Assembly (NCBI RefSeq): GCF_024499055.1 | Contig: NZ_CP071249.1 | Location: forward strand, 186,001 to 250,000 | Direction: 5' to 3' | Source of the DNA: Turicibacter bilis | Lineage (GTDB): Bacteria > Bacillota_I > Bacilli_A > MOL361 > Turicibacteraceae | DNA length: 64,000 nt | Part shown: positions 20,065 to 32,567 of the stretch, piece after piece | Layout: each line of letters starts with the position of its first letter | Position numbering within the stretch: position 1 is the first letter of the stretch | Notes under the pieces: model-generated | The model's input: only the letters and a program-made list of their open reading frames with translations | What the model was told of the DNA's origin: nothing | The model's database searches: none | Made by a program: the position numbers and the translations under genes

Positions 20065-21675
20065 ACGAAAATAAAGTGTGCGTTGAATGAGATGGCTTAG
20101 GTTCACTCACAATATGTTGTACAATCAAGGACGATGTTTCTTGGATCGAATAGACCGATATATAGACTGTTCTGACAACTTCTCTTTGAACCACATTTTG
20201 TCCCTGAGGACGTATAGTAGAATAATAATCATGAAGTTGGCATTGTACGTAAATTATATTCAAAGGAGAATTCAGACCATGGATGTTCTTTACAAAACTT
20301 GTTGTGGGATTGACGTGCATAAGATGAAATTGGTTGCCTGTTTGTGTAAAGGCCACAAGCAAGAAATCAAGGAATTTAGTGCCAAAACAAAAGATATCAA
20401 AGCAATGGCTAATTGGCTTGAAGAGAATCAATGTGAAATGGTAGCGATGGAATCGACTTCTGTTTATTGGAAACCACTGGTTAACATCTTTGAAATGCGC
20501 GGTTTAAATTATATGATCGTGAACGCCAAAGACTTTAAAGCTGTTCCTGGTCGGAAGACAGATGTTTTAGATAGTGCTTGGTTAGCCGATTTACTTCGCC
20601 ACGGTTTACTTAAATCAAGCTTTATTCCAAGTCGTGAACAACGTGAATTAAGAGAGGCGACAAGGTATCGCAAAGCGATAACTGAAGAAAGAGCTCGTGC
20701 CCTTAACAGACTTCAAAAATTATTAGAAGGTGCAAATATTAAAATTGGTTCGGTTCTTTCAACTATTACAGGTAAAACAACGATGAATCTACTGGATTAT
20801 GTTCTAAACAATGATGAAATGATGGATGAAAAAACAGCTGAAACCTTAATTATCAGTCGGATATCGGCTTCTGTTAAAGAGGTGACAGAGGCGATGGAAG
20901 GAATTATGACCCCTTTTCAAAAAATGATGATGAAACAAGTTCTCACGCATCTTCATGAATTATCTGAAAGAATTGAAGAGATGGATATCATCATTGAGAC
21001 GTATATGGCAGAATATTGGGAAGCGATTAAGAAGCTTGAACAAATTCCTGGAGTCGGAAAGAAAAGTGCGGAAATTATTTTAGCTGAAATCGGATTGGAT
21101 ATGAATCAATTTCCAACTGCGGGGCATCTAGCTTCATGGGCAGGTGTAGCTCCTGGAAATAATGAAAGTGCGGGCAAAAGAAAAAGCGGGCGAACCCGCA
21201 AAGGAAATAAGATACTAAAATCGACCCTCGCACAGGCTGCGAAATCAGCAGCTAAGAATAAAAATAGCTTCTTTCATGCTCAGTATCAACGAATTGCCAT
21301 CAGAAGAGGAAAAAATAGAGCCACCATGGCGGTCGCTCATTCCATCCTAATCGCCATCTATCATATGTTGAAAGACGACCAGGAGTTTATTGATTTAGGA
21401 TCCGACTACTACCATCAATTTAATACCGAGAAAAAAATCAACTCATACCTGAAAAAGTTAGCTGCTTTAGGATACAGAGTTGATGAGCATTCTACGATAT
21501 CACCAGTCGGATAATTTATTATCGTAAAAAACAAGTGATTTAAAACATAAAAACACAAACAATTGTTGTTGAAAGTTGCCTTTATTTCGACAGTAATTTA
21601 TGACATGATTCGAGGCCTACAAGGGAGGTCTTTTCAAAGCTGACCTCACGGAGGGAGTTTGTATTTATTTTCATA
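20036..21675 (+). mobile_element. IS110-family insertion sequence
   Basis: Bounded on the left by the point where the hydrolase frame breaks (about 20036) and on the right by where its tail resumes (about 21675); the exact ends are estimated, because IS110 elements often lack clear terminal inverted repeats and target duplications. It holds one transposase gene. About 240 nt lie before the transposase and about 160 nt after it. In the IS110 group the longer left non-coding end encodes the bridge RNA that pairs with target and donor DNA, so 20036-20278 is the candidate bridge-RNA region. I have not solved its fold. Confidence 0.75.
20279..21514 (+). CDS. IS110-family transposase/recombinase
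   Basis: A 411-residue recombinase, apparently intact. The N-terminal DEDD (RuvC-like) domain starts CCGIDVHKMKLVACL, with the acidic residues in VAMEST and RKTDVLDSAWLADLL. The C-terminal Transposase_20 domain has LEQIPGVGKKSAEIILAEIG, a helix-hairpin-helix, and SWAGVAPGNNESAGKRKSGRTRKGN with the conserved serine used as nucleophile. I start it at ATG 20279 (AAGGAG at 20262-20267); the open frame extends back to 20087, but this upstream part is the IS non-coding end. Such enzymes use a bridge RNA to choose targets. Confidence 0.93.
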   Translation: MDVLYKTCCGIDVHKMKLVACLCKGHKQEIKEFSAKTKDIKAMANWLEENQCEMVAMESTSVYWKPLVNIFEMRGLNYMIVNAKDFKAVPGRKTDVLDSAWLADLLRHGLLKSSFIPSREQRELREATRYRKAITEERARALNRLQKLLEGANIKIGSVLSTITGKTTMNLLDYVLNNDEMMDEKTAETLIISRISASVKEVTEAMEGIMTPFQKMMMKQVLTHLHELSERIEEMDIIIETYMAEYWEAIKKLEQIPGVGKKSAEIILAEIGLDMNQFPTAGHLASWAGVAPGNNESAGKRKSGRTRKGNKILKSTLAQAAKSAAKNKNSFFHAQYQRIAIRRGKNRATMAVAHSILIAIYHMLKDDQEFIDLGSDYYHQFNTEKKINSYLKKLAALGYRVDEHSTISPVG

Positions 21676-21750
21676 GTAGAAAAGGATGAAATTATTCAAT
21701 CTTATTTTAATCAAATGAAAGAGTTTATTGAAACTAAAATTTTAAAATAG
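21676..21750 (+). pseudogene. Probable displaced 3' end of the alpha/beta hydrolase
   Basis: In one frame this reads VEKDEIIQSYFNQMKEF followed by IETKILK and a stop at 21748-21750. It has the look of the C-terminal amphipathic helix that follows the catalytic His in S33 hydrolases, and it would rejoin the gene interrupted at about 20034. An alternative is that it is the N-terminus of the DUF1919 remnant, which continues in the same frame after the stop. Confidence 0.5.
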
Positions 21751-22305
21751 AAAGATGTAGCAATTATTAGTAATAATTGTACAGCTGATTATGTTTATTA
21801 ATTCTTTGGATTAGCATATTTTATTCCTATAGTAGGATTGTTTTTTCAACTGAAAATTATTTGAAGTTTATGGAGAATTTGAAAGAGTATATATCTAAAG
21901 ATATTAAATTTATAACTGTAAGTGAGAGGAAAAATGAGTTCATTAGAAATAATAAAGACTTAATCAATTATCCAATAGGAAAAATAGGGAATGTTGAAAT
22001 TTATTTTACGCATTATTACTCACAAGAAGAGGCACACAGGAAATAGTTAAATCAGATTAGATGAATTGATTTAAATAAAACTATTTTCTTGTTAACAGAA
22101 AATGAATTGACGGAAGAAATACATATAGACAAGCTTTTGAAAATAAAACTTATAAAAAAGATTTGTCTAACGTACAATAAATACAATTGTGAGAATACTT
22201 ATCATTCTGAAAGAGTTAGCCAGATGGAGAATAAATCTTGATTACCTAAAATTGTACTTAATCTAGTAGACTGGCATTTAATTATTAATGATAATAAAGA
22301 CTAGA
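21751..22305 (+). pseudogene. DUF1919-family remnant (exopolysaccharide-associated)
   Basis: Degenerate coding sequence. One frame reads KDVAIISNNCTADYVY, stop, FFGLAYFIPIVGLFF. After a frameshift at about 21855 the second frame gives YLKFMENLKEYISKDIKFI, NYPIGKIGNVEIYFTHYYSQEEA and, beyond three stops, TIFLLTENELTEE. This order matches DUF1919 proteins, which are common in polysaccharide biosynthesis loci (NNCWGG, SPTVGLFF, YPIGKL, HY..EEA in intact members). It precedes a polysaccharide-type operon, which may have been its original partner. Confidence 0.65.
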
Positions 22306-22320
22306 TATTCGAAATAAATA

Positions 22321-22553
22321 GCAGCTATCAGACGAAGCAAGTATTGATGTATGGAAGTGGCGATGTAAAGGTAAAATGCAGTGAAGAATGAGATGCTGTT
22401 TACCATTTATGTGACATTTGTCTAGAACCACACATCTGGCGTGAAGCTTATGAGTTTTCAGAATAGGCAGTATCGTTAGTTTTAATCTACAATATAAAGT
22501 CGACGATGATTGTCACTAAATCTTCATTATTTAAAAAGTATTTGATTCGTTAG
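22321..22553 (+). pseudogene. Decayed coding sequence, family not recognised
   Basis: One frame, with two internal stops, reads like protein: QVLMYGSGDVKVKCSEE, stop, DAVYHLCDICLEPHIW, then VSLVLIYNIKSTMIVTKSS. I do not recognise the family. It may be the end of the upstream remnant's neighbour. Confidence 0.3.
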
Positions 22554-22599
22554 AGAGGATTAAAAAACTGCTTTACCATCAAATATTCATCGATATTTT

Positions 22600-22632
22600 A
22601 AAACCTTAGTGAATGATTCATTAAGGTTTTTT
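22600..22632 (+). terminator. Rho-independent terminator
   Basis: AAAACCTTA pairs with TAAGGTTTT across a 12-nt loop, followed by T6. It separates the decayed region from the polysaccharide operon. Confidence 0.8.
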
Positions 22633-22715
22633 ATGGAGTTAATATGTTGAGGATATGTAAATAAGGAGCTTAGAACTCAGCATATTTGTAGAGAAGCATT
22701 ATACTATTTGAAAGG

Positions 22716-22760
22716 TTGATATTATTTATAAATAATGTATAATAATGTATAATAATGTAT
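22716..22760 (+). promoter_or_regulatory. Operon promoter with three tandem 10-bp repeats over the -10 box
   Basis: A -35 box TTGATA (22716-22721) is 16 bp from a TATAAT at 22738-22743. The 10-bp unit AATAATGTAT is repeated exactly three times (22731-22760), which recreates TATAAT at 22748 and 22758. Copy number would change promoter geometry by one helical turn per unit. Confidence 0.65.
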
Positions 22761-22818
22761 AATATGTAATACCAATTTTTTCTAATAAAGAAAGAGGGGG
22801 ATTAGAATTAAATGCTTA

Positions 22819-23595
22819 ATGTTGAGCAGCTGTTTACTTTTATGTTTGATGGGATGTGAATATAAAGAACAGCCTAAACTCAATCGGAACCAAACGTGTT
22901 ATGAGTTAAATCATTTTTTATTTGGGGTGAAGGATTCTGATGGGAAACGAGTTGGCCCAGGAAACAATATTTTCTCGGATTCAAAAGAAGTTGTCTTTCA
23001 AGATGAATCAGGAGGCATTCATTTACGATTAATGGGGTCTAAGAACGAAGTCCTGGCAGCTGAGATTGTGAGCTTAGATGCTAAAGGATGGGGGCTATAT
23101 GAATTTGTCTTAGAAGGAAATCTAGATCAAATTCCAGCTCATGTCATGGTGAGTCCATTTTTGTATGCTGATGATAAAAATGAAGTTGATATTGAGTTTT
23201 CCGCATGGGATGAAACTGACAATGAACAGGAAAGTCCGTGGTTAAAAGAAGGGAATTATCAGTTTATCGTTCAGCCCTACAATCAAGTGGGAAATTCTAT
23301 TCGTCCAACTGAACGGTTAGTTTTAGATTGTGAAGAGGGAATTCCACTAACGAGTTATCGTATTTATAACTTGGAAGATAAAGTTCAAATTGAGATGTAT
23401 GAGGGACGCTTTGAAGCTGGACGCTTAATTGATAGGTGGGACTATCCGCATGGAATTTTAGAAGGTGATGAAATGAGATTTCACCTTAATGTTTATGTAA
23501 AAGATGGAAACTTATCTAAAGTACAGGAATTAAGTGAGCCAATAGAGATTATTCTAAAAGAGTTTAATTTTATTGACGCTTCAGATTTACATTAG
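22819..23595 (+). CDS. GH16-like beta-glucanase-fold lipoprotein
   Basis: A 258-residue predicted lipoprotein, first gene of the polysaccharide operon. The lipobox is LMGC at residues 10-13. The rest is a beta-sandwich with the GH16 layout: WGLYEFVLEGN (the strand before the active site) and NEVDIEFSAWD, which fits the catalytic ExDxE motif of this family, so hydrolase or transglycosylase activity on a beta-glucan is possible. The start is doubtful: from ATG 22819 the signal peptide lacks a positive charge and the GAGGGGG site is 18 nt away, whereas ATG 22812 is better placed but out of frame. A one-base error between them, or a longer N-terminus (RIKCLMLSS...), is possible. Twelve nucleotides separate it from the next gene. 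Confidence 0.75.
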   Translation: MLSSCLLLCLMGCEYKEQPKLNRNQTCYELNHFLFGVKDSDGKRVGPGNNIFSDSKEVVFQDESGGIHLRLMGSKNEVLAAEIVSLDAKGWGLYEFVLEGNLDQIPAHVMVSPFLYADDKNEVDIEFSAWDETDNEQESPWLKEGNYQFIVQPYNQVGNSIRPTERLVLDCEEGIPLTSYRIYNLEDKVQIEMYEGRFEAGRLIDRWDYPHGILEGDEMRFHLNVYVKDGNLSKVQELSEPIEIILKEFNFIDASDLH

Positions 23596-23607
23596 GGAGG
23601 GAATGGT

Positions 23608-24300
23608 TTGATTGTTAATCGACGAGAAATCAAGTATTCCATTAGTGAGGTAGATTATTATCGTTATTTAAATTTATTTAATACTATTTTAAAGGTCGAT
23701 CCGCATTCTAAAGAGGGAAGCTATACGATTCGAAGCTTATATTTTGATACACCGATGAATGATGATTATTATAGTAAGATGAGTGGCGAAGAGGTCCGAA
23801 AAAAAATTCGCCTTCGCCTTTATGATGTTCACACGGATCGTGTCAAACTCGAGCTGAAACGTAAAATAAGTGTGAATCAAGTTAAGGAAACGGTTTGGAT
23901 TAGTGCATCAGATGCGAGAGCGCTGATTGAGATGAAGTATGATGTTTTATTGAAGTATGAAGAAAAAACAGCTCAGACCATTTATAATATTATGAGCCTC
24001 GGACAATATCGACCAGTTGTTCTCATTGATTATGATCGACGAGCATTTTATCATGAAGAAAATAATATTCGGATTACGTTAGATAGTCAAATTCGAAGTA
24101 GTGAAACAGATTTTGATTTGTTTTCTGAAGATGTATTGATGGTTCCAGCCTTTACAACTTATAATGCTATTTTAGAGGTGAAGTTTAATGGAGACTTATT
24201 TTGTTGGATTACAGAGGTTTTAAAGGGGCGTGATACCGTTAATCAATCATTGAGTAAGTATTGTTTGTCACGATCATTATTTGATCAATATTTAGCATAA
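23608..24300 (+). CDS. VTC-domain protein (polyphosphate polymerase-like)
   Basis: A cytoplasmic tunnel-fold protein of 230 residues related to the catalytic domain of the yeast vacuolar transporter chaperone, which makes polyphosphate from ATP. Visible family marks are NRREIKYSI at the start (Arg/Lys/Glu pairs lining the tunnel), SLYFDTP, KIRLRLYD, VKLELKRK, PVVLIDYDRRAF and the late EVKFNG. It starts at TTG with GGGAGGG about 8 nt upstream. In bacteria these proteins are repeatedly found beside DUF4956 and CotH genes, as here. True polyphosphate synthesis in this context is unproven; it could phosphorylate or prime something else. Confidence 0.9.
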   Translation: MIVNRREIKYSISEVDYYRYLNLFNTILKVDPHSKEGSYTIRSLYFDTPMNDDYYSKMSGEEVRKKIRLRLYDVHTDRVKLELKRKISVNQVKETVWISASDARALIEMKYDVLLKYEEKTAQTIYNIMSLGQYRPVVLIDYDRRAFYHEENNIRITLDSQIRSSETDFDLFSEDVLMVPAFTTYNAILEVKFNGDLFCWITEVLKGRDTVNQSLSKYCLSRSLFDQYLA

Positions 24301-24313
24301 TTAAAGGAGAGAT

Positions 24314-24985
24314 ATGATGAAAGAGATGTTATATGAATATTTAGTGACACGTAGTGGGGAGATTAATATATTTAAATCGATTGAAATATTAATAGTGGCG
24401 TTACTATTAGCCGCGATCGTGTTTTGGACGTATAAATTTACGTTTAGCGGGGTGTTATATAACCGAAAATTTAATGTGTCATTGATTATGCTAACGTTAA
24501 TTACAACGATGGTTATGATTGTCATTGGAAGTGATATCGCTTTATCACTTGGAATGGTTGGAGCATTATCTATTGTTCGATTTAGAACAGCCATTAAAGA
24601 CCCACGAGATACGGCATATATTTTTTGGTGTATTGGTATTGGATTAAGTGTGGGAACACAAAACTATATGGTTGCTTTAGTAGGGTCAATCTTTTTAGCG
24701 ATTGTTTTAATTGCATTTAGTTTTGGAAGCTTTGGAGCAGAAGATCGCTATTTACTCATTATCCGAGGCGAGCGTCGTTGTGAAAGCGAGGTTATGTCGT
24801 ATTTATTTAAGCAGTTTAAAGGAGCACAACTTCGTGGTAAAAACTCAACCGATCAAACGATGGAAATGATTTATCAAGTGTCATTAAAGAATGACCAACA
24901 AAAAATGTTACTGGATACATTTTATCAAATCGAAGGGATACAAAGTGTCAATTTAGTGGCTCAAAACGGTGAGACGATTGGATAG
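24314..24985 (+). CDS. DUF4956 membrane protein
   Basis: A 223-residue protein with about four membrane helices in residues 20-145 (EILIVALLLAAIVFWTY, VSLIMLTLITTMVMIVIG, and a pair around FWCIGIGLSVG) and the DUF4956 signature GMVGALSIVRFRTAIKDPRDTAYIFW. The last 75 residues form a soluble ferredoxin-like domain. No catalytic activity is known for the family. It is strongly linked to VTC and CotH genes, probably acting as their membrane partner. GGAGAG precedes the ATG pair at 24314; the gap to the upstream gene is 13 nt. Confidence 0.9.
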   Translation: MMKEMLYEYLVTRSGEINIFKSIEILIVALLLAAIVFWTYKFTFSGVLYNRKFNVSLIMLTLITTMVMIVIGSDIALSLGMVGALSIVRFRTAIKDPRDTAYIFWCIGIGLSVGTQNYMVALVGSIFLAIVLIAFSFGSFGAEDRYLLIIRGERRCESEVMSYLFKQFKGAQLRGKNSTDQTMEMIYQVSLKNDQQKMLLDTFYQIEGIQSVNLVAQNGETIG

Positions 24986-24992
24986 GTGAATC

Positions 24993-26492
24993 ATGATGAA
25001 AAGATTGTTCGCAGGATGTATGACGGTATTGTTATTAGTGTTAATTACCGTTGTGATTGCGCTAATTCAAGAATCTGATGCCAAAGAAGTAAAAGAAAAA
25101 GTGAAGACAACGTTAACCTTACCTGAAGACGTCTTAGCCGAATCCTCTTTACCGATTGTCGTCATTGATACGAAGGGCCAGGAGGTCATCTATAGGAAAA
25201 AAGGTGAGAGTTCTGGAGAAAGTGTTCAAGGGAGGCTCAGTCTCTATGTTCCTGAAGATTTTCAAGCTGGGAATTTAGCAGCCCAATTGGAGATGAACAT
25301 TGATATTGGGGTTCGAGGAAATACCTCGCGATTATTACCTAAAAAGCAATATACTTTAACACTTTTAAATAAAGAGGGTCAGGAACAGGCTAAATCGTTA
25401 CTGGGGATGCCAAAAAGTGAAAAATGGATTTTAAACGCCTCATTTGAAGATCAATCCTTGCTTCGAAATAAGCTAGCTTATGATATTTCAAGGGAAATTA
25501 TGGAATATGCACCTCGTTCAGAGTTTTGTGAGGTCTATTTAATTGATGATGAACAGCCGTTGACAACTGCTCATTATATGGGAATTTATTTATTAGTTGA
25601 GAAAATTGGGCGTGATGAGTCACGAGTAGATATCTCACAAACCATGAATCATCTCGCTGAGACTAGTTTTATTGTTTCACGTAACCGAATTAAGCCGTCA
25701 GATAATTTGTTGAAAAATTATGGATCTCAAATCTATTTGTATGATTATAACATGATTGTGGAGTATCCAAAGTCGGAATTGACAGATGAGAAGCAGATTT
25801 ATATTAATCAGACGATTAGTGAGTTTGAACGAGTGCTTTATTCCGATCGATTTGATGATCCGATTGAGGGGTATGTAGCTCATATCGATGTAGATTCTTT
25901 TATTGATTATTTTATTATTAATGAATTTTTTAAGAATACGGATGCCGGAATTTTTAGTACGTATTTATATAAAGATTATGAGAGTAAGATTAAAGCGGGA
26001 CCGGTATGGGATTTTGATTCAGCTATGGGAAATAGTACGCATTTATTTCCATATTATGATGAAACTGGATTTTATATGCCTCGAACCGCTTGGTTTGAAC
26101 AGTTATTAAAGGATCGAAAGTTTGTAAAGCAAATGATTAATCGGTATCACCTCTTACGTAGAACCTATTTAAGTGAGGAGTATTTATTCACTCAAATCGA
26201 TAATTATGTCGAGGAGTTAGGTAAGGCTATACAGCGAAACTTTGAAAAATGGCCGGTTGAGCTATGTAATCAATCTGAAATGTTGAAGAAGTATTATCAA
26301 GTGATTAAACCGTATGAACGTGATGTTCATGCGTTGATGACATTTTTAGAAGAAAATCCTCAATATACCGTTGACACGCAAAATCGAGCACAGTCTTATG
26401 ATAGCGAAATTGATAAATTAAAGAAATTTATTAGTGAACGTGGAACGTGGATTGATGATCATATCGACAGCTTATTAAAATGGGCGGAATAA
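24993..26492 (+). CDS. cotH: CotH-family protein kinase-like protein
   Basis: CotH proteins are atypical protein kinases that phosphorylate spore-coat or cell-surface proteins. This 499-residue member has an N-terminal membrane anchor/signal (MTVLLLVLITVVIALI) and then the CotH fold: IDIGVRGNTSRLLPKKQYTL, WILNASFEDQSLLRNKLAYDI, GIYLLVEKIG (nucleotide-site lysine region), DSFIDYFIINEFFKNTD and the metal-binding PVWDFDSAMGN. The start overlaps AGGTGA, which itself overlaps the end of the upstream gene, so translation is probably coupled. The target on the outside of the cell is unknown; in this operon it is more likely an envelope or polysaccharide-assembly protein than a spore coat. Confidence 0.9.
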   Translation: MMKRLFAGCMTVLLLVLITVVIALIQESDAKEVKEKVKTTLTLPEDVLAESSLPIVVIDTKGQEVIYRKKGESSGESVQGRLSLYVPEDFQAGNLAAQLEMNIDIGVRGNTSRLLPKKQYTLTLLNKEGQEQAKSLLGMPKSEKWILNASFEDQSLLRNKLAYDISREIMEYAPRSEFCEVYLIDDEQPLTTAHYMGIYLLVEKIGRDESRVDISQTMNHLAETSFIVSRNRIKPSDNLLKNYGSQIYLYDYNMIVEYPKSELTDEKQIYINQTISEFERVLYSDRFDDPIEGYVAHIDVDSFIDYFIINEFFKNTDAGIFSTYLYKDYESKIKAGPVWDFDSAMGNSTHLFPYYDETGFYMPRTAWFEQLLKDRKFVKQMINRYHLLRRTYLSEEYLFTQIDNYVEELGKAIQRNFEKWPVELCNQSEMLKKYYQVIKPYERDVHALMTFLEENPQYTVDTQNRAQSYDSEIDKLKKFISERGTWIDDHIDSLLKWAE

Positions 26493-26511
26493 AAAAGGAG
26501 AGAAATAAACG

Positions 26512-28572
26512 ATGAAAAAATTTTTAATGATTTGTACGCTTCTTTTTATCCTCCTTTTCCTGTTGATCACCAATCAATTTTATTATTTGATGGATGATGA
26601 AAAGATGCTGAAGATACCTTTTAGTATTTCAAATCAACAAATTTATCAAAATGTTCAAGGGGAGTTAGAGCCATTTGACATGATTGGAATGAATTTGACG
26701 TCAGCTCTTCCAGGAAGTTTTCCTAATGAAGAGGAATTGGAGGAATCCCTTTATTTAGAATGGTTAACCTTAATTCAACAATTGGGGGTAACGGTTTTAC
26801 GGTTACCTGACTTGATGCCGCTGACCTTTTATGAAGCTCTGTTAACGTTTAATGAAACACAGTCAACGCCCCTTTATCTTTTACAAGGTATAGCTTTTGA
26901 TGAGATCGCATTGGCAGATGGTATGGACTTACAAGCGTTGCGTGAGCCTTATGTAACAAAAATAAAAGGAATGATTGATTGTTTGTACGGTGGAGCATAC
27001 CCTGAAAGTGAAGAGTTGCCACTCTCAAATCAGAGCGTGGACGTATCCCCTTATTTACTTGGTTATAGTTTAGGAATGGAATGGGGGAGCCATGATCTTA
27101 TTTTTTCTGAGATTATGGGAGAGTTGACCCCTTATGAAGGAATATATTTTTATACAACAAACGAGGCTTCTAGTGTGGAATCATTTTTAGCGGAACTGAT
27201 GGATGAGTTAATCCGCTATGAATTCGATCACTATGGAACTCAACATTTAATTACTATGGTAGGTTCAAATATTGAAGAAACATTGAACTATTTAATGAAA
27301 CATAAAAAAGAAGGAATGAGAGGGGAACAAACAATCAAAAAAATTGTTGATTTAAATCAAATTAAAACAACGGATGCACTCGAAAGTGGTTATTTTGCTT
27401 CATATCACTTATATCCAGTGTTTGGTGAGGGAATGAAAGATTCCGTTGCCTCGATGTTAGTAGCCCTTGAGAATACTCATGAGATACCAGTCGTTATCTC
27501 TGAATATGGGCTTCCATCAGCTAAAGTCATTTATAAAGAGACAACTGAAGAGTTAGTGGGGATTAATGAGGAAGAACAGGCAAATGCATTGGTCATGATT
27601 TATGAAACCCTTAAGCAATCCAATGTGATGGGAAGTTTTGTATCAGATTGGCAAGATCGCTGGGATCGAACAGCCTGGACGACCGTCGAGGAAATCATTT
27701 TAGATCGTAGTCCTTATTGGAAAAATGAACTGACGTATTTACAGTCAGGGGGCTTATATACGTTTGATTCCTCAACCAGTTATCCAGATAATCGAACCGA
27801 TGATTGGAAGGATGAAAACGTGTTAATCGAAAATGAGCAGGTTCAATTGTCCGTCAAGTCAGATGAAGCAGGACTGTTCTTTTTGATACAGTGGAACGAA
27901 ACACCTCCGGCAGATGTTTCGTATTGGATTGATTTAGATGTCACCCCGAATTCTGGGAGTATTTCTTATGAGAAAGAAGGATTAAGTTTTGATCGACCAG
28001 TCGATTTCATTGTTAATATTGATGCCAATAACCAGAGTCGTGTGTTAGTTCAGCGATATTATCACACTTATGAATTTTTACAAAATCGTCAAAGTCTTCA
28101 AATTCGTCCTGATCAAATCGAAGTTTCTTCAGATATGGATGAGTTTGAACCGATTTTAATGGAGGTCAAATCAAGGAAATATGATGAAAATCAAGAATGC
28201 TTTATCGACCCGGTGGTGCAAGAAGCAGGGCGTTTACTTGAAGGAAATGCAAATCCATCTGCCCCTGACTTTAATTCATTAGCTAATTATTATAGAGGAG
28301 AAGGTTATGTGGAAATTAAAATTCCATGGGGGATTTTAAATTTTGCTGACCCAAGTACATGTCAAATTCATCATGACTATTATGAAAACTTCGGTATTTC
28401 ATCGTTTCAAATTAGTGCTATAGGCATTGGATTAACTATTAAGTCTCAAGACTCAGAAATGATGCATCTATCTTCAAAAAATTATAGTTTAACATCATGG
28501 ACGTCACCAACATACGAGCCACGATTAAAATTAGCGTATAATTTATTACAAGAAGCGTTTTTATCAGATTAG
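26512..28572 (+). CDS. Membrane-anchored glycosidase-like protein (TIM barrel plus beta domain)
   Basis: A 686-residue extracytoplasmic protein with an N-terminal signal anchor (FLMICTLLFILLFLLITN). The first 380 residues look like a glycoside-hydrolase TIM barrel: GMNLTSALPGSFP, GVTVLRLPDL, LGYSLGMEWG (candidate acid/base Glu) and IPVVISEYGLPSAK (candidate nucleophile Glu at a strand end, as in GH2/GH5/GH17-type clans). The C-terminal 250 residues look like a beta-sandwich, beginning near the SSTSYPDNRTDDWKDE segment. I cannot name the family. Its position before the HEAT and synthase genes suggests trimming or anchoring of the secreted polymer. Confidence 0.7.
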   Translation: MKKFLMICTLLFILLFLLITNQFYYLMDDEKMLKIPFSISNQQIYQNVQGELEPFDMIGMNLTSALPGSFPNEEELEESLYLEWLTLIQQLGVTVLRLPDLMPLTFYEALLTFNETQSTPLYLLQGIAFDEIALADGMDLQALREPYVTKIKGMIDCLYGGAYPESEELPLSNQSVDVSPYLLGYSLGMEWGSHDLIFSEIMGELTPYEGIYFYTTNEASSVESFLAELMDELIRYEFDHYGTQHLITMVGSNIEETLNYLMKHKKEGMRGEQTIKKIVDLNQIKTTDALESGYFASYHLYPVFGEGMKDSVASMLVALENTHEIPVVISEYGLPSAKVIYKETTEELVGINEEEQANALVMIYETLKQSNVMGSFVSDWQDRWDRTAWTTVEEIILDRSPYWKNELTYLQSGGLYTFDSSTSYPDNRTDDWKDENVLIENEQVQLSVKSDEAGLFFLIQWNETPPADVSYWIDLDVTPNSGSISYEKEGLSFDRPVDFIVNIDANNQSRVLVQRYYHTYEFLQNRQSLQIRPDQIEVSSDMDEFEPILMEVKSRKYDENQECFIDPVVQEAGRLLEGNANPSAPDFNSLANYYRGEGYVEIKIPWGILNFADPSTCQIHHDYYENFGISSFQISAIGIGLTIKSQDSEMMHLSSKNYSLTSWTSPTYEPRLKLAYNLLQEAFLSD

Positions 28573-28584
28573 AAAGGGGGAGAA

Positions 28585-29676
28585 GTGATGAATGTCTTTA
28601 TTATTGTCTTAATGGTTGTATTCTTTATTTATCTCATTTTCTGTACCGAATTGTATTTAACTTGGTGTGTTCATCGAGAACATCGATATGAAAAAAAGTT
28701 AAGACGACATGACAATTTTAAATTAGAAATTCAAAGTCAGCTCGAAGCCGTTAAAAACAATCAACCCCTTTCACCTACTCAATTGAAGAGAGTTCTTTCT
28801 TTATTAAAAAGGCAGGTCTATTTTGATTTGTTTAATGAAGTCATTATTGAAACCTATCAATCAGAAGACTATCGTCCTGTTATTCGTCAATATATGAATT
28901 ATTTTGATAAACTATTAGAGCGATTAATAAAGAAAAAGTTAGGAGCAAATGATCTTTTTAAATTAAAACTATCTAAATTAATTGGCTATTATCAGGTCGA
29001 TTCACCTCAAGTCCATCTGTTTTTATTAGACTGCTTAAAACAAAACTCGATGTATTTGAAGTTAAATGTTTTAATGTCATTATCACAAATTGGAAATGTT
29101 ACATCATTTTATGATGCGCTATGTTATATTTCTAAGGAATATGTTCTTTATAACGAAAAATTATTAATTGATATCATGGCAAAATTTACTGGGGATCAAA
29201 CTCGCTTAAATAATCAGCTGTTAGAGTATTTTAGTGAGTTTACAAAGGAATTTCAAATAACTTTAATCCACTATTTTACGCTCAAATCTTGGCAGCCTAT
29301 TGAACCATTATTACTTGATTTATTGGAAAGAGGAGAAGAAAAGGAGAAAGAACTGCATTTAGGTGCAATTAAGTATTTTACAAATTACCCCAGTTCAATG
29401 ACCAAGTCACTGTTTTTACATTATTTAAAGCATGCTGATTGGGAATATCGAGCCCTTAGTGCAAAAGCTTTACAACATTTTTCACAAGACGACGTTATTA
29501 ATCACCTATTTGCGGCAAGTCGGGATCGAAACTGGTATGTCCGATTTAACTCAGCTATGACTTTGTGTTCGTATCATATAGATGAGAAAATTCTGAGTTA
29601 TATCGAACATACGGAAGATCATTATTCAAAAGATATTTTGTTATATGCATTATCCTTAAAGCAACAGGCTAGCTAG
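28585..29676 (+). CDS. Membrane-anchored HEAT-repeat protein
   Basis: A 363-residue protein with one N-terminal helix (VFIIVLMVVFFIYLIFC) and a long all-helical cytoplasmic part. HEAT-like repeats are visible at YLKLNVLMSLSQIGNV, LHLGAIKYFTNYPS, WEYRALSAKALQHFSQDD and WYVRFNSAMTLCSY; the tryptophan/tyrosine-arginine starts are typical. HEAT repeats mediate protein binding, so this probably docks regulators or the neighbouring synthase at the membrane. HEAT proteins next to processive glycosyltransferases occur in several exopolysaccharide loci. AGAAAGGGGGAG precedes the start. No enzyme motif is seen. Confidence 0.82.
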   Translation: MMNVFIIVLMVVFFIYLIFCTELYLTWCVHREHRYEKKLRRHDNFKLEIQSQLEAVKNNQPLSPTQLKRVLSLLKRQVYFDLFNEVIIETYQSEDYRPVIRQYMNYFDKLLERLIKKKLGANDLFKLKLSKLIGYYQVDSPQVHLFLLDCLKQNSMYLKLNVLMSLSQIGNVTSFYDALCYISKEYVLYNEKLLIDIMAKFTGDQTRLNNQLLEYFSEFTKEFQITLIHYFTLKSWQPIEPLLLDLLERGEEKEKELHLGAIKYFTNYPSSMTKSLFLHYLKHADWEYRALSAKALQHFSQDDVINHLFAASRDRNWYVRFNSAMTLCSYHIDEKILSYIEHTEDHYSKDILLYALSLKQQAS

Positions 29677-29710
29677 TAGGAGAGAAGTTATTAAGAAAGT
29701 AGGTGAGTAG

Positions 29711-31138
29711 ATGCTAGAATTCGTGGTCGATAGTATTAATTATTTTTTCATGATTTATATTGTTATTTATGCTATTATTTTCTTTATTTCGACAATTTCA
29801 TCTATCATTGAGTTAGAGAAAAATAGAGTTTATCGTAAATATGAGTATACATTTGGCTTAAAAAGTGAAGAGAATTCGATTCCCATTTCTATTTTAGTTC
29901 CAGCTTATAATGAATCACAGACTATCATTGATTGTATTGAATCTAATATTTATCTGGATTATCCAGAGTTTGAAATAATTGTAATTAATGATGGGTCAAC
30001 GGATGAAATGGGAGAATTGGTTCGTCAGCATTTTAAGTTAAAAGAAATAAATCGCCCGATCAAACGTGTTGTCCCTTGTCAAAAAGAAATAAGCATTTAT
30101 GAAGGAAAGATTCGAGAAGGCATCAATCTAATTTTAATCAATAAAGTTAATGGAGGAAAAGCAGATGCTTTAAACATGGGAATCAATGTAGCTAAGTATC
30201 CGTTGATTGTGTGTCTAGATGCAGATTCTGTTTTACAGTATGATTCACTGAGTGAGATTATTGTTTCTTTTATGAAAGATAGTCGAACCATTGCCGTTGG
30301 TGGAAATGTAAAAGTCTCTAATCAAGTCGTATTAGATAAAGGACGAGTCATTGAGTATCTGTCGCCTAAAAAGTTTATTGTGATGATGCAGCTCATTGAG
30401 TATTATCGCGTTTTTTTAAATACAAGGGTTTGGTTTAATCAGTTTAATGGGAATTTGATTATTTCAGGGGCCTTTGGGTTATTTCGTAAAGATGCTGTGA
30501 TTGCAGTTGGAGGCTATGATACCAATAGTGTCGGTGAGGATATGGATTTAGTCTTAAGATTACATTCTTTTTATCGTAAAAACCAATTACCTTATCGAAT
30601 TGGCTATGAGCCACGTGCAATTTGTTGGTCCCAAGTTCCTTCGAGTTTAAAAGATATAAAAAATCAGCGTCGACGTTGGCAAATTGGATTGATGACCTCA
30701 CTGTTTAATCATCGTTATATGGCATTCAATTTTCACTATGGATTTATTGGTCTATTTTCGTATAGCTATTTTATCGTATATGAAATGTTATCGTGCTTAG
30801 TCGACATTTTTGGGTTAATTTTTATTATGATTTCCTATTTTACCGGATTTTTAAATTTCTCATTTTTTATTACTTTTATGCTGATTTATATTATATATAA
30901 TATGGTGATATCTATTGTAGCCATTAAATGCGAAGAATTTATGTTTCAAGGTTCGTTATCATTTTGTGATAAAATGAAGCTCATTTTATTTAGTATAATT
31001 GAGAATTTCGGCTATCACCAGCTTCTTTCTTTTTATCGGTTAAGTGCTTTTATTGGCTATCGTCAGCAAAAGCATCAATGGAAAAAAATTAATCGAGTTC
31101 AACATAATAAACTCAAGCCGCAAATTTATAAAACATAA
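29711..31138 (+). CDS. Processive family-2 glycosyltransferase (polysaccharide synthase)
   Basis: A 475-residue integral-membrane synthase of the hyaluronan/cellulose/poly-GlcNAc type. One N-terminal helix precedes the GT-A domain: ISILVPAYNES, VINDGSTDE, NKVNGGKADALNMG, CLDADSVL (metal-binding DxD), SGAFGLFRKDAV, VGEDMDLVLRL (catalytic-base ED) and NQRRRWQIGL (the Q/RxxRW product-site motif). Four or five C-terminal helices from about residue 345 would form the export channel. The set is what a single protein needs to polymerise and secrete a beta-linked glycan. The sugar cannot be read from the sequence. It is the last gene of the operon. Confidence 0.93.
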   Translation: MLEFVVDSINYFFMIYIVIYAIIFFISTISSIIELEKNRVYRKYEYTFGLKSEENSIPISILVPAYNESQTIIDCIESNIYLDYPEFEIIVINDGSTDEMGELVRQHFKLKEINRPIKRVVPCQKEISIYEGKIREGINLILINKVNGGKADALNMGINVAKYPLIVCLDADSVLQYDSLSEIIVSFMKDSRTIAVGGNVKVSNQVVLDKGRVIEYLSPKKFIVMMQLIEYYRVFLNTRVWFNQFNGNLIISGAFGLFRKDAVIAVGGYDTNSVGEDMDLVLRLHSFYRKNQLPYRIGYEPRAICWSQVPSSLKDIKNQRRRWQIGLMTSLFNHRYMAFNFHYGFIGLFSYSYFIVYEMLSCLVDIFGLIFIMISYFTGFLNFSFFITFMLIYIIYNMVISIVAIKCEEFMFQGSLSFCDKMKLILFSIIENFGYHQLLSFYRLSAFIGYRQQKHQWKKINRVQHNKLKPQIYKT

Positions 31139-31395: not shown

Positions 31396-31442
31396 ATACG
31401 GCACGAAGTCTATACTTTATTGGACTTGTGCCGTATTTTTTG
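31396..31442. terminator. Strong inverted repeat / terminator
   Basis: ATACGGCACGAAGTC pairs with GACTTGTGCCGTAT (G-U allowed) across a 12-nt loop, followed by T7 on the + strand. It can end rightward transcription from the operon side and overlaps the 3' end of the leftward IS3 remnant. Confidence 0.75.
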
Positions 31443-32567
31443 AATTCGTTTTGAGGTATAATAGTGAATGTAGTCAATAATGAATTGTTTAACTTTTGCT
31501 AAAGTTTGTGGTGAACTCAAGGGTGGCATCTCAACATTGAGATAACTAAAGAAGTTTTCGATACAAGCATTCTCCCAGCAGTTACCTTTGCGGGACATCG
31601 ATTCTATCACTTTCATTTTAGCTACTTTTTTTATGTATTGAGGATGAGTAAATTGAAATCCTTGATCGGTATATAAAATGGCCTCGGCCTCTAATGGCAA
31701 TTGTTCTAATTGCTTTAAACAGTCGTAAATAAGTTCCAAATTATTGGGTACTCCAAAGGAATACGCAATAATTTGGTTATGATATAAATCTTTAACCGTA
31801 CATAAATAAATCCAATTTTTATATGGTTTTTTCACTTGAATATAAGTCATATCTATCGTTAATTTTTGAAGAGGCTTATCGCTTTGAAAATGTCGATTCG
31901 AGATATTTTCAATCGTCCCATGAGGTTACTTCGCATGTTTAAAACGTGCTTTTCTTATTTTACAAACAAGTCTATATTTATGCATAATCCGACGAATATA
32001 TTTGTAATTAACGATAAGGCCGAATTCTTCTAATAAACCATGTTTCATCTTAATCACGCCTATAATTCCTTGGTGTTACTCAAAAAGTTGATGAATCAGT
32101 TGAAATAAAGCTTCATCTTTTGTTTGTTTAGGTGAAGAACCAACTGTTTTAAGTCATTTATAATAACCTGAGTGTGAAACCTCTACTAGTTGAAGTAAGA
32201 GGTTTAGTTTGAACTGATTTAGATAATCATGAATCAATTGAAATCGTTCGAATTTTGTTAACATCCCCTTTTTTGCTTGATTGACTTTTTTAAGTATAGT
32301 ACCTCAGCACGTAGATATTTAACTTCTTCCTCTAGGGACATAAAGGATGAATTCTTAGGTCTTCCTGTTGACTGTGTTCCTCGTCGTTCAATGAAGGCAT
32401 CACTTCCATTATCATTGAATTATTTAACCCAAACATTCACCCATTTTTTATCCTTGATTCCTAATTCATTAACAATTATTGAGCGTGGAATATCGGCTTG
32501 ATACATTTTAACAGCTTTCATTTTTAGTTGAGAAGAATAGGTGTAATTTTTATTGATTAATTTTAAA
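31410..32567 (-). mobile_element. Decayed IS3-family (IS150-like) element, orfA and orfB broken
   Basis: On the minus strand orfA begins MSLKLINKNYTYSSQLKMK at 32567 (helix-turn-helix), meets a stop after VNVWVK, and continues FNDNGSDAFIERRGTQS to the end of a leucine-zipper-like tail (VKYLRAEVLYLKKSI). orfB (from about 32264) has stops after HSGYYK, HQLFE and RFKHAK. The integrase core is readable: LTIDMTYIQ (first D), ILYTDQGFQFTHP (second D) and SRKGNCWENACIENFFSYLN (catalytic E). The normal C-terminus is altered. Ends and target duplication were not found. Confidence 0.8.

Follow-up and report, generated by a model that had tools for sequence, protein, structure and literature searches.

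The seven genes that fill positions 22819-31138 of a 64,000-nucleotide stretch of the Turicibacter bilis genome (the window, which spans bases 186001-250000 of a 2.79 Mb genome in one contig) very probably build a surface sugar polymer, and the reading we favour, with reasonable confidence, is that of an exopolysaccharide synthase which across its family is controlled by cyclic di-GMP (c-di-GMP) and which is accompanied by a phosphate-handling accessory cassette. The open reading frames occupy this interval exactly, all on the forward strand and with successive gaps of 12, 13, 7, 19, 12 and 34 bp (Table 1), in keeping with the seven closely spaced genes described in an earlier, sequence-only reading of the stretch. 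That reading had likewise taken them for a surface-polymer synthase operon, which is upheld by a conserved six-gene set and by invariant motifs in its family 2 glycosyltransferase (GT2, gene 7), and the predicted identity as an exopolysaccharide synthase indeed has solid family evidence behind it. Five of the seven genes have Pfam matches (VTC, DUF4956, CotH, HEAT_2 and Glycos_transf_2); genes 1 and 5 matched no Pfam family.

A conserved gene order and its linkage to c-di-GMP

Relatives were collected by a DUF4956-alignment search of 84,980 genomes, the best 80 loci being joined by the window and two loci of an earlier search to give 83, which are ranked by similarity to the window operon and do not constitute a census of VTC-DUF4956 pairs. 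The order VTC-DUF4956-CotH-glycosidase (clan GH-A)-HEAT-GT2 is complete in 48 of them, with the single exception that in L031 the VTC gene stands at the end of the set, and such a recurrence is far beyond chance; in six further loci the set is partial or cut by contig ends. A larger GT2 stands beside VTC-DUF4956-CotH in 16 loci, CotH occurs without a visible GT2 in eight, and no CotH was found in five. The earlier claim that VTC-DUF4956-CotH goes with a synthase is thus borne out, by a HEAT-linked GT2 in the 48 loci and by a larger, cellulose-type GT2 in 16 more, and the contrary pattern, with the three genes always devoid of a GT2, is not what the comparison of gene order returned. The hosts comprise Turicibacter, Peptostreptococcaceae, Clostridium, Lachnospiraceae, Oscillospiraceae, Christensenellaceae, Holdemania (Erysipelotrichia) and Paenibacillus, and furthermore Carnobacterium, whose copy is truncated by a contig end, and Planococcus, where a complete set lies on a plasmid. 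The closest named relative of the operon is found in Turicibacter sp. UBA7094, with a DUF4956 protein that is 81% identical.

In 14 loci a c-di-GMP riboswitch lies directly upstream of VTC, its end 27-210 nt ahead of the likely VTC start, and both classes are represented (class I in L041, L057, L061, L069, L074, L080, L081, L084, L089, L097, L100 and L102, class II in L040 and L067). Whole-genome searches of 31 genomes returned 34 class I riboswitches, four of which fall within 300 nt before VTC where about 0.0016 would be expected. GGDEF or EAL genes are furthermore present at a distance of at most 5 kb in 31 of the 48 complete loci, and HD-GYP-like genes in 11. Any c-di-GMP element at all is found in 34 of the 48 complete loci, whereas this is so in only two of the 16 loci with a larger GT2 (Fisher p = 7e-5), a comparison in which the loci are related to each other and hence not independent events. 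No c-di-GMP riboswitch was detected in the seven larger-GT2 loci scanned, and the two larger-GT2 synthases examined have PilZ in place of a nearby c-di-GMP element. The proposed control of the operon family by c-di-GMP rests on this linkage to riboswitches and enzymes. Locus L092 in addition contains a second gene 5-HEAT-GT2 set, divergent and beside its full operon (L092:1-5300, minus strand), and before this set stands an additional c-di-GMP-I riboswitch (L092:8716-8798, minus strand).

The HEAT-GT2 core and the glycosidase

The D, DxD, GED and QxRRW-type motifs of the GT2 are invariant among 30 relatives. Its best NCBIfam model is PgaC_IcaA (TIGR03937), with 155 bits against a cut-off of 422, and the cellulose model CelA gives 45.6 bits against a cut-off of 699. 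In a maximum-likelihood tree the HEAT-linked GT2s form a single clade (98/96, 99% of bootstraps) apart from the PgaC, NodC and Ccs-type GT2s, and those of the six-gene operons form a clade nested within it (99/99). On a Deinococcus plasmid a homologue of gene 5 that is fused to TPR repeats is followed by HEAT and GT2 genes, and an Erythrobacter plasmid carries a response regulator, TPR, HEAT and GT2 genes inside a flagellar cluster, in both cases with no VTC, DUF4956 or CotH gene beside them. Since these HEAT-GT2s share the clade, we regard HEAT-GT2 as the core of the system and VTC-DUF4956-CotH as separable from it. An alphaproteobacterial response regulator-TPR-HEAT-GT2 set within a flagellar cluster and near a PilZ gene (L104:5349-9242) suggests that such synthases extend beyond Gram-positives.

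The HEAT protein is very likely cytoplasm-facing, since positive charges follow its membrane anchor in all 44 anchored relatives. We regard it as a constant companion of the GT2 on the strength of gene linkage and of the tree. The sequence-only reading had seen no usual c-di-GMP receptor (PilZ) and had proposed that HEAT or VTC may replace it. The GT2 is indeed devoid of a PilZ domain by Pfam, but c-di-GMP control is probably lacking only in this copy, relatives having riboswitches ahead of VTC and GGDEF, EAL or HD-GYP genes within or next to the operon. Of the two candidates, HEAT in place of PilZ would fit the distribution, since HEAT goes with the GT2 that lacks PilZ and is absent from all 16 loci with a larger GT2. 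VTC is an unlikely replacement, since it occurs with both types of synthase.

The larger GT2s examined, those of L044 and L056, are cellulose-synthase-like and PilZ-bearing, and adjoin genes for MBOAT, AlgX, a GH5 cellulase and a metallo-beta-lactamase. Two further proteins accompany the operon in relatives. A conserved coiled-coil protein of about 170 amino acids lies directly after the GT2 and before an EAL gene in L053, L061, L067, L073, L084, L089, L091 and L097; its start resembles that of DivIVA, and it might position the synthase in the cell. In 11 loci, including L042, L045, L046, L048, L064 and L065, a protein of about 270-300 amino acids adjoins the operon on one side or the other; it gave no Pfam match in the three cases examined.

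The glycosidase-like, membrane-anchored protein of the earlier reading is gene 5, and it can now be placed. An AlphaFold (AF2) model computed with 47 homologues as input (predicted local distance difference test, pLDDT, 88.8; predicted template modelling score, pTM, 0.88) shows a membrane helix at the N-terminus, followed by a TIM barrel and, at the C-terminus, a beta domain. The nearest structures by VIA-align are GH157 beta-1,3-glucanases (Z 24.3, 2.6 Å over 307 residues), followed by GH2 beta-glucuronidases (Z about 21) and a GH5 mannanase (20.9), and the best match of the sequence profile is likewise a GH157 structure, 9fz9 (LaGH157, 4e-5). Two candidates for the catalytic residues, Glu190 and Glu331, occur in the window copy and are kept in 31 and 32, respectively, of 40 operon relatives and in all seven stand-alone relatives. 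The fold, the profile match and the conservation of the glutamates are the grounds for calling gene 5 a clan GH-A glycosidase. Its identity with LaGH157 is however just 12%, other GH-A families are close behind and no substrate is implied, and gene 5 differs from GH157 by its additional C-terminal beta domain and its membrane anchor. The nearest fold relatives may hint that the polymer is a beta-glucan.

Table 1. Genes of the operon and features upstream of it, in window positions
Feature	Position	Strand	Basis or remark
Degraded DNA upstream of operon	21515..22818	+	in place of the GGDEF-EAL gene of relatives
Promoter-like site, TTGATA-16-TATAAT, 11/12	22716..22764	+	about 75 bp upstream of gene 1; consensus match only
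Gene 1: lipoprotein, 258 aa, EVDIE motif	22819..23595	+	possible GH16-like beta-sandwich
Gene 2: VTC (polyphosphate-polymerase fold), 230 aa, TTG start	23608..24300	+	PF09359, 2.9e-38
Gene 3: DUF4956	24314..24985	+	PF16316, 2.6e-11
Gene 4: CotH kinase-family protein	24993..26492	+	PF08757, 1.9e-60
Gene 5: membrane-anchored clan GH-A TIM barrel, 686 aa	26512..28572	+	AF2 model, structural and profile matches
Gene 6: membrane-anchored HEAT-repeat protein	28585..29676	+	PF13646 (HEAT_2), 3.7e-9; predicted cytoplasmic
Gene 7: processive GT2 synthase	29711..31138	+	Glycos_transf_2, 1.7e-26; D, DxD, GED, QRRRW motifs

The VTC-DUF4956-CotH cassette and the competing explanations

VTC can be aligned with yeast Vtc4 (7.7e-11), and Arg68, Arg70, Lys84, Lys86, Lys93, Arg144, Arg155, Glu190, Lys192 and Lys217 are invariant among 82 sequences, with Ser216 kept in 81. 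The conserved set comprises the positions aligned with the Vtc4 tunnel together with a glutamate and a lysine near the C-terminus, and these correspond to the catalytic residues of Vtc4. DUF4956 has at least three hydrophobic membrane segments by hydropathy and is MgtC-like at a level below the cut-off (Pfam MgtC, 0.0034). CotH has a single N-terminal membrane segment, as in every CotH of the family, its motifs align with those of the solved CotH structure 5jd9, and Lys117, Asp153, Arg158, Asp317 and Asp340 are kept in 69-71 of 71 sequences. A second, more distant VTC-DUF4956 pair is found in the same genome near 2297018, that is at about 2.297 Mb (L022:6986-8439), without an adjoining CotH or GT2.

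The three genes are a separable cassette which accompanies no fewer than three types of synthase, namely HEAT-GT2, the cellulose type with PilZ, and Pel. This argues for a role common to all of them, either in polymer phosphorylation or in export control; a phosphate-related role of the cassette is putative. In the reading that we favour, the GT2, which is PgaC/IcaA-like but distinct, would polymerise a glycan and drive it across the membrane, with HEAT as a putative co-polymerase or as a subunit that controls it; gene 5 would act outside, where it may trim, release or re-attach the emerging chain. VTC would form polyphosphate or another phosphoryl product at the inner face with DUF4956 as its presumed membrane partner, and CotH may move phosphate onto the polymer or onto an extracytoplasmic part of the machine.

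A fully polyphosphate-fuelled phosphorylation of the glycan, in which polyphosphate made by VTC passes through DUF4956 and is used by an extracytoplasmic CotH, ATP being scarce there, on the exopolysaccharides of several unrelated synthases, and in which HEAT is a c-di-GMP-responsive substitute for PilZ, seems to us unlikely. More weight should be given to the possibility that the cassette is a regulatory phosphorylation relay, with CotH phosphorylating the synthase or the glycosidase so as to turn export on or off, VTC and DUF4956 sensing or buffering phosphate, and the polymer itself unphosphorylated. Regulation of Pel by CotH has been proposed by Whitfield et al. (PMC7112168), and the occurrence of the cassette beside chemically different synthases would suit a general regulator. 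We nevertheless hold such a relay to be plausible rather than probable, since regulation is already supplied by c-di-GMP in most loci and since the tunnel residues of VTC, intact in 81-82 of 82 sequences, argue for catalysis and not mere sensing. That the operon is a system for polyphosphate or phosphate storage, with the glycosyl genes as passengers or as makers of a polyphosphate carrier, is very improbable; although VTC-DUF4956 pairs do occur without CotH or GT2, as near 2297018, the synthase core exists without VTC in a clade of its own, and the cassette is repeatedly found beside exopolysaccharide genes, the six-gene type moreover with c-di-GMP control.

It is likewise rather doubtful that we are dealing with an established exopolysaccharide system (Pga/Ica, or cellulose of the Ccs/Bcs kind) to which extra genes have been added. 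The nearest NCBIfam synthase family is indeed that of pgaABCD/icaADBC, but the score of 155 bits is far under the curated cut-off, the clade is separate from PgaC, and no PgaB/IcaB-type deacetylase was found in the operon. The clostridial cellulose synthase ccsZABHI resembles it in that a Gram-positive GT2 synthase is paired with its own clan GH-A glycosidase (PMC7710045), and L044 and L056 are near to the ccsZABHI layout with the cassette added. The Ccs system however has a CcsA with PilZ and MBOAT/DHHW acetylation genes, all missing from the operon, it is devoid of HEAT, and Ccs-like GT2s fall in a separate clade. In the Gram-positive Pel clusters the accessory genes cotH-PPP(VTC)-DUF4956-DUF4832 stand beside an exopolysaccharide synthase, and bifidobacterial clusters with this cassette have a diguanylate cyclase/phosphodiesterase gene (PMC7112168). 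There, however, the synthase is pelDEADAFG and not HEAT-GT2, and a DUF4832 protein accompanies the cassette instead of gene 5; no Pel synthase genes are found in 22819-31138, where the GT2 is the sole synthase gene.

Several facts weigh against the exopolysaccharide reading. For an operon of this kind neither a product nor an activity nor a mutant is known, and the relatives were, as stated, ranked by similarity to the window. The window copy has no riboswitch detectable by Rfam or by a model built from the riboswitches of relatives, and no GGDEF gene was found in the operon or nearby, nor any remnant of one by tblastn with the GGDEF proteins of relatives. About 20% of the gene 5 relatives are without one of the candidate catalytic glutamates, so hydrolysis may be non-essential. 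Furthermore, the positive-inside rule is ambiguous across the family as to the side of CotH, as it is for gene 5, and both the synthesis of polyphosphate by a bacterial VTC and the side on which CotH acts are things that we infer.

The same gene order was published in 2010 for the Clostridium perfringens locus NELoc-2 (CP4_0460-0468), which is linked to necrotic enteritis strains; neither a function nor a mechanism was given, and the genes were labelled VTC, tubulin/FtsZ, CotH, hypothetical, heat repeat and chitin synthase (PMC2879425). The likeness extends to a CotH of 497, a hypothetical protein of 685, a HEAT protein of 377 and a GT2 of 466 amino acids (PMC2879425), and size and place make the "tubulin/FtsZ" gene the probable equivalent of DUF4956, whereas NELoc-2 differs in having a resolvase and an additional VTC-DUF4956 pair. 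In subsequent publications the list is repeated or the expression of some of its parts is reported (PMC5964661, PMC4983038, PMC11677781). For a characterised HEAT-GT2 or VTC-DUF4956-CotH system the literature gave only these lists and the Pel accessory note, preprints and many subscription journals being outside the search, and the literature searched contained no paper in which the operon is tied to c-di-GMP, the HEAT-GT2 clade is delimited or a mechanism is put forward. A report on cotH and a riboswitch (PMC4448311) treats the leader of Bacillus subtilis cotH and not c-di-GMP. What is new is the linkage to c-di-GMP riboswitches and enzymes, the distinction of a HEAT-GT2 core from a separable cassette, and the placing of gene 5 in clan GH-A nearest GH157. 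HEAT-GT2 would be a widespread Gram-positive type of exopolysaccharide synthase, unnamed in the curated libraries used and tied to c-di-GMP through both riboswitch classes as well as GGDEF, EAL and HD-GYP enzymes, and its core is set apart from a phosphate-handling cassette common to cellulose-type and Pel systems. NELoc-2, to which no function had been assigned, thereby gains a testable function, and the role of bacterial VTC, DUF4956 and membrane-anchored CotH becomes directly testable.

The Turicibacter bilis copy and its surroundings

In two other Turicibacter copies a GGDEF-EAL gene lies just upstream of the operon, and in one relative a divergent sugar nucleotidyltransferase, GalU-like by sequence, stands beside it (L013:15962-16846), which might be taken as a weak hint of UDP-glucose use. 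The degraded DNA at this place in the window contains remnants of a DUF1919 gene (PF08942, 4e-11) at 21861-22046 and around (21515-22430, plus strand), broken by stop codons. Since this DNA with its DUF1919 remnant lies behind an IS110 element, the local c-di-GMP input was probably lost, or else relocated; nine GGDEF matches and a single PilZ protein are found at other places in the genome. The operon is bracketed by an IS110-family transposase upstream (20087-21514) and an IS3-type integrase fragment downstream (31410-31850). The window GT2 clusters with Peptostreptococcaceae and Clostridium copies (95/91), the operon has different neighbours in two Turicibacter genomes, and two other genomes of this genus are devoid of gene 5, all of which makes horizontal transfer likely.

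Gene 1, which is present in the three Turicibacter copies of the operon and in no others, had been described as a GH16-like lipoprotein. The lipoprotein part holds by virtue of an LMGC lipobox, but GH16 is a possible label that derives only from the EVDIE motif. No match to GH16 or other profiles was obtained in Pfam, NCBIfam or PDB, and hhalign against 16 GH16 proteins gave a probability of 0.2%, equal to that of a reversed control. A low-confidence AF2 model built from three sequences only (pLDDT 41.7) resembles mixed beta-sandwich folds by VIA (Z at most 8.5), with GH16 chains at 6.8. Upstream of this gene a 10-bp repeat occurs three times at 22731-22764, each copy containing TATAAT, and overlaps the -10 element of the likely operon promoter, so that a change in copy number could alter expression of the operon.

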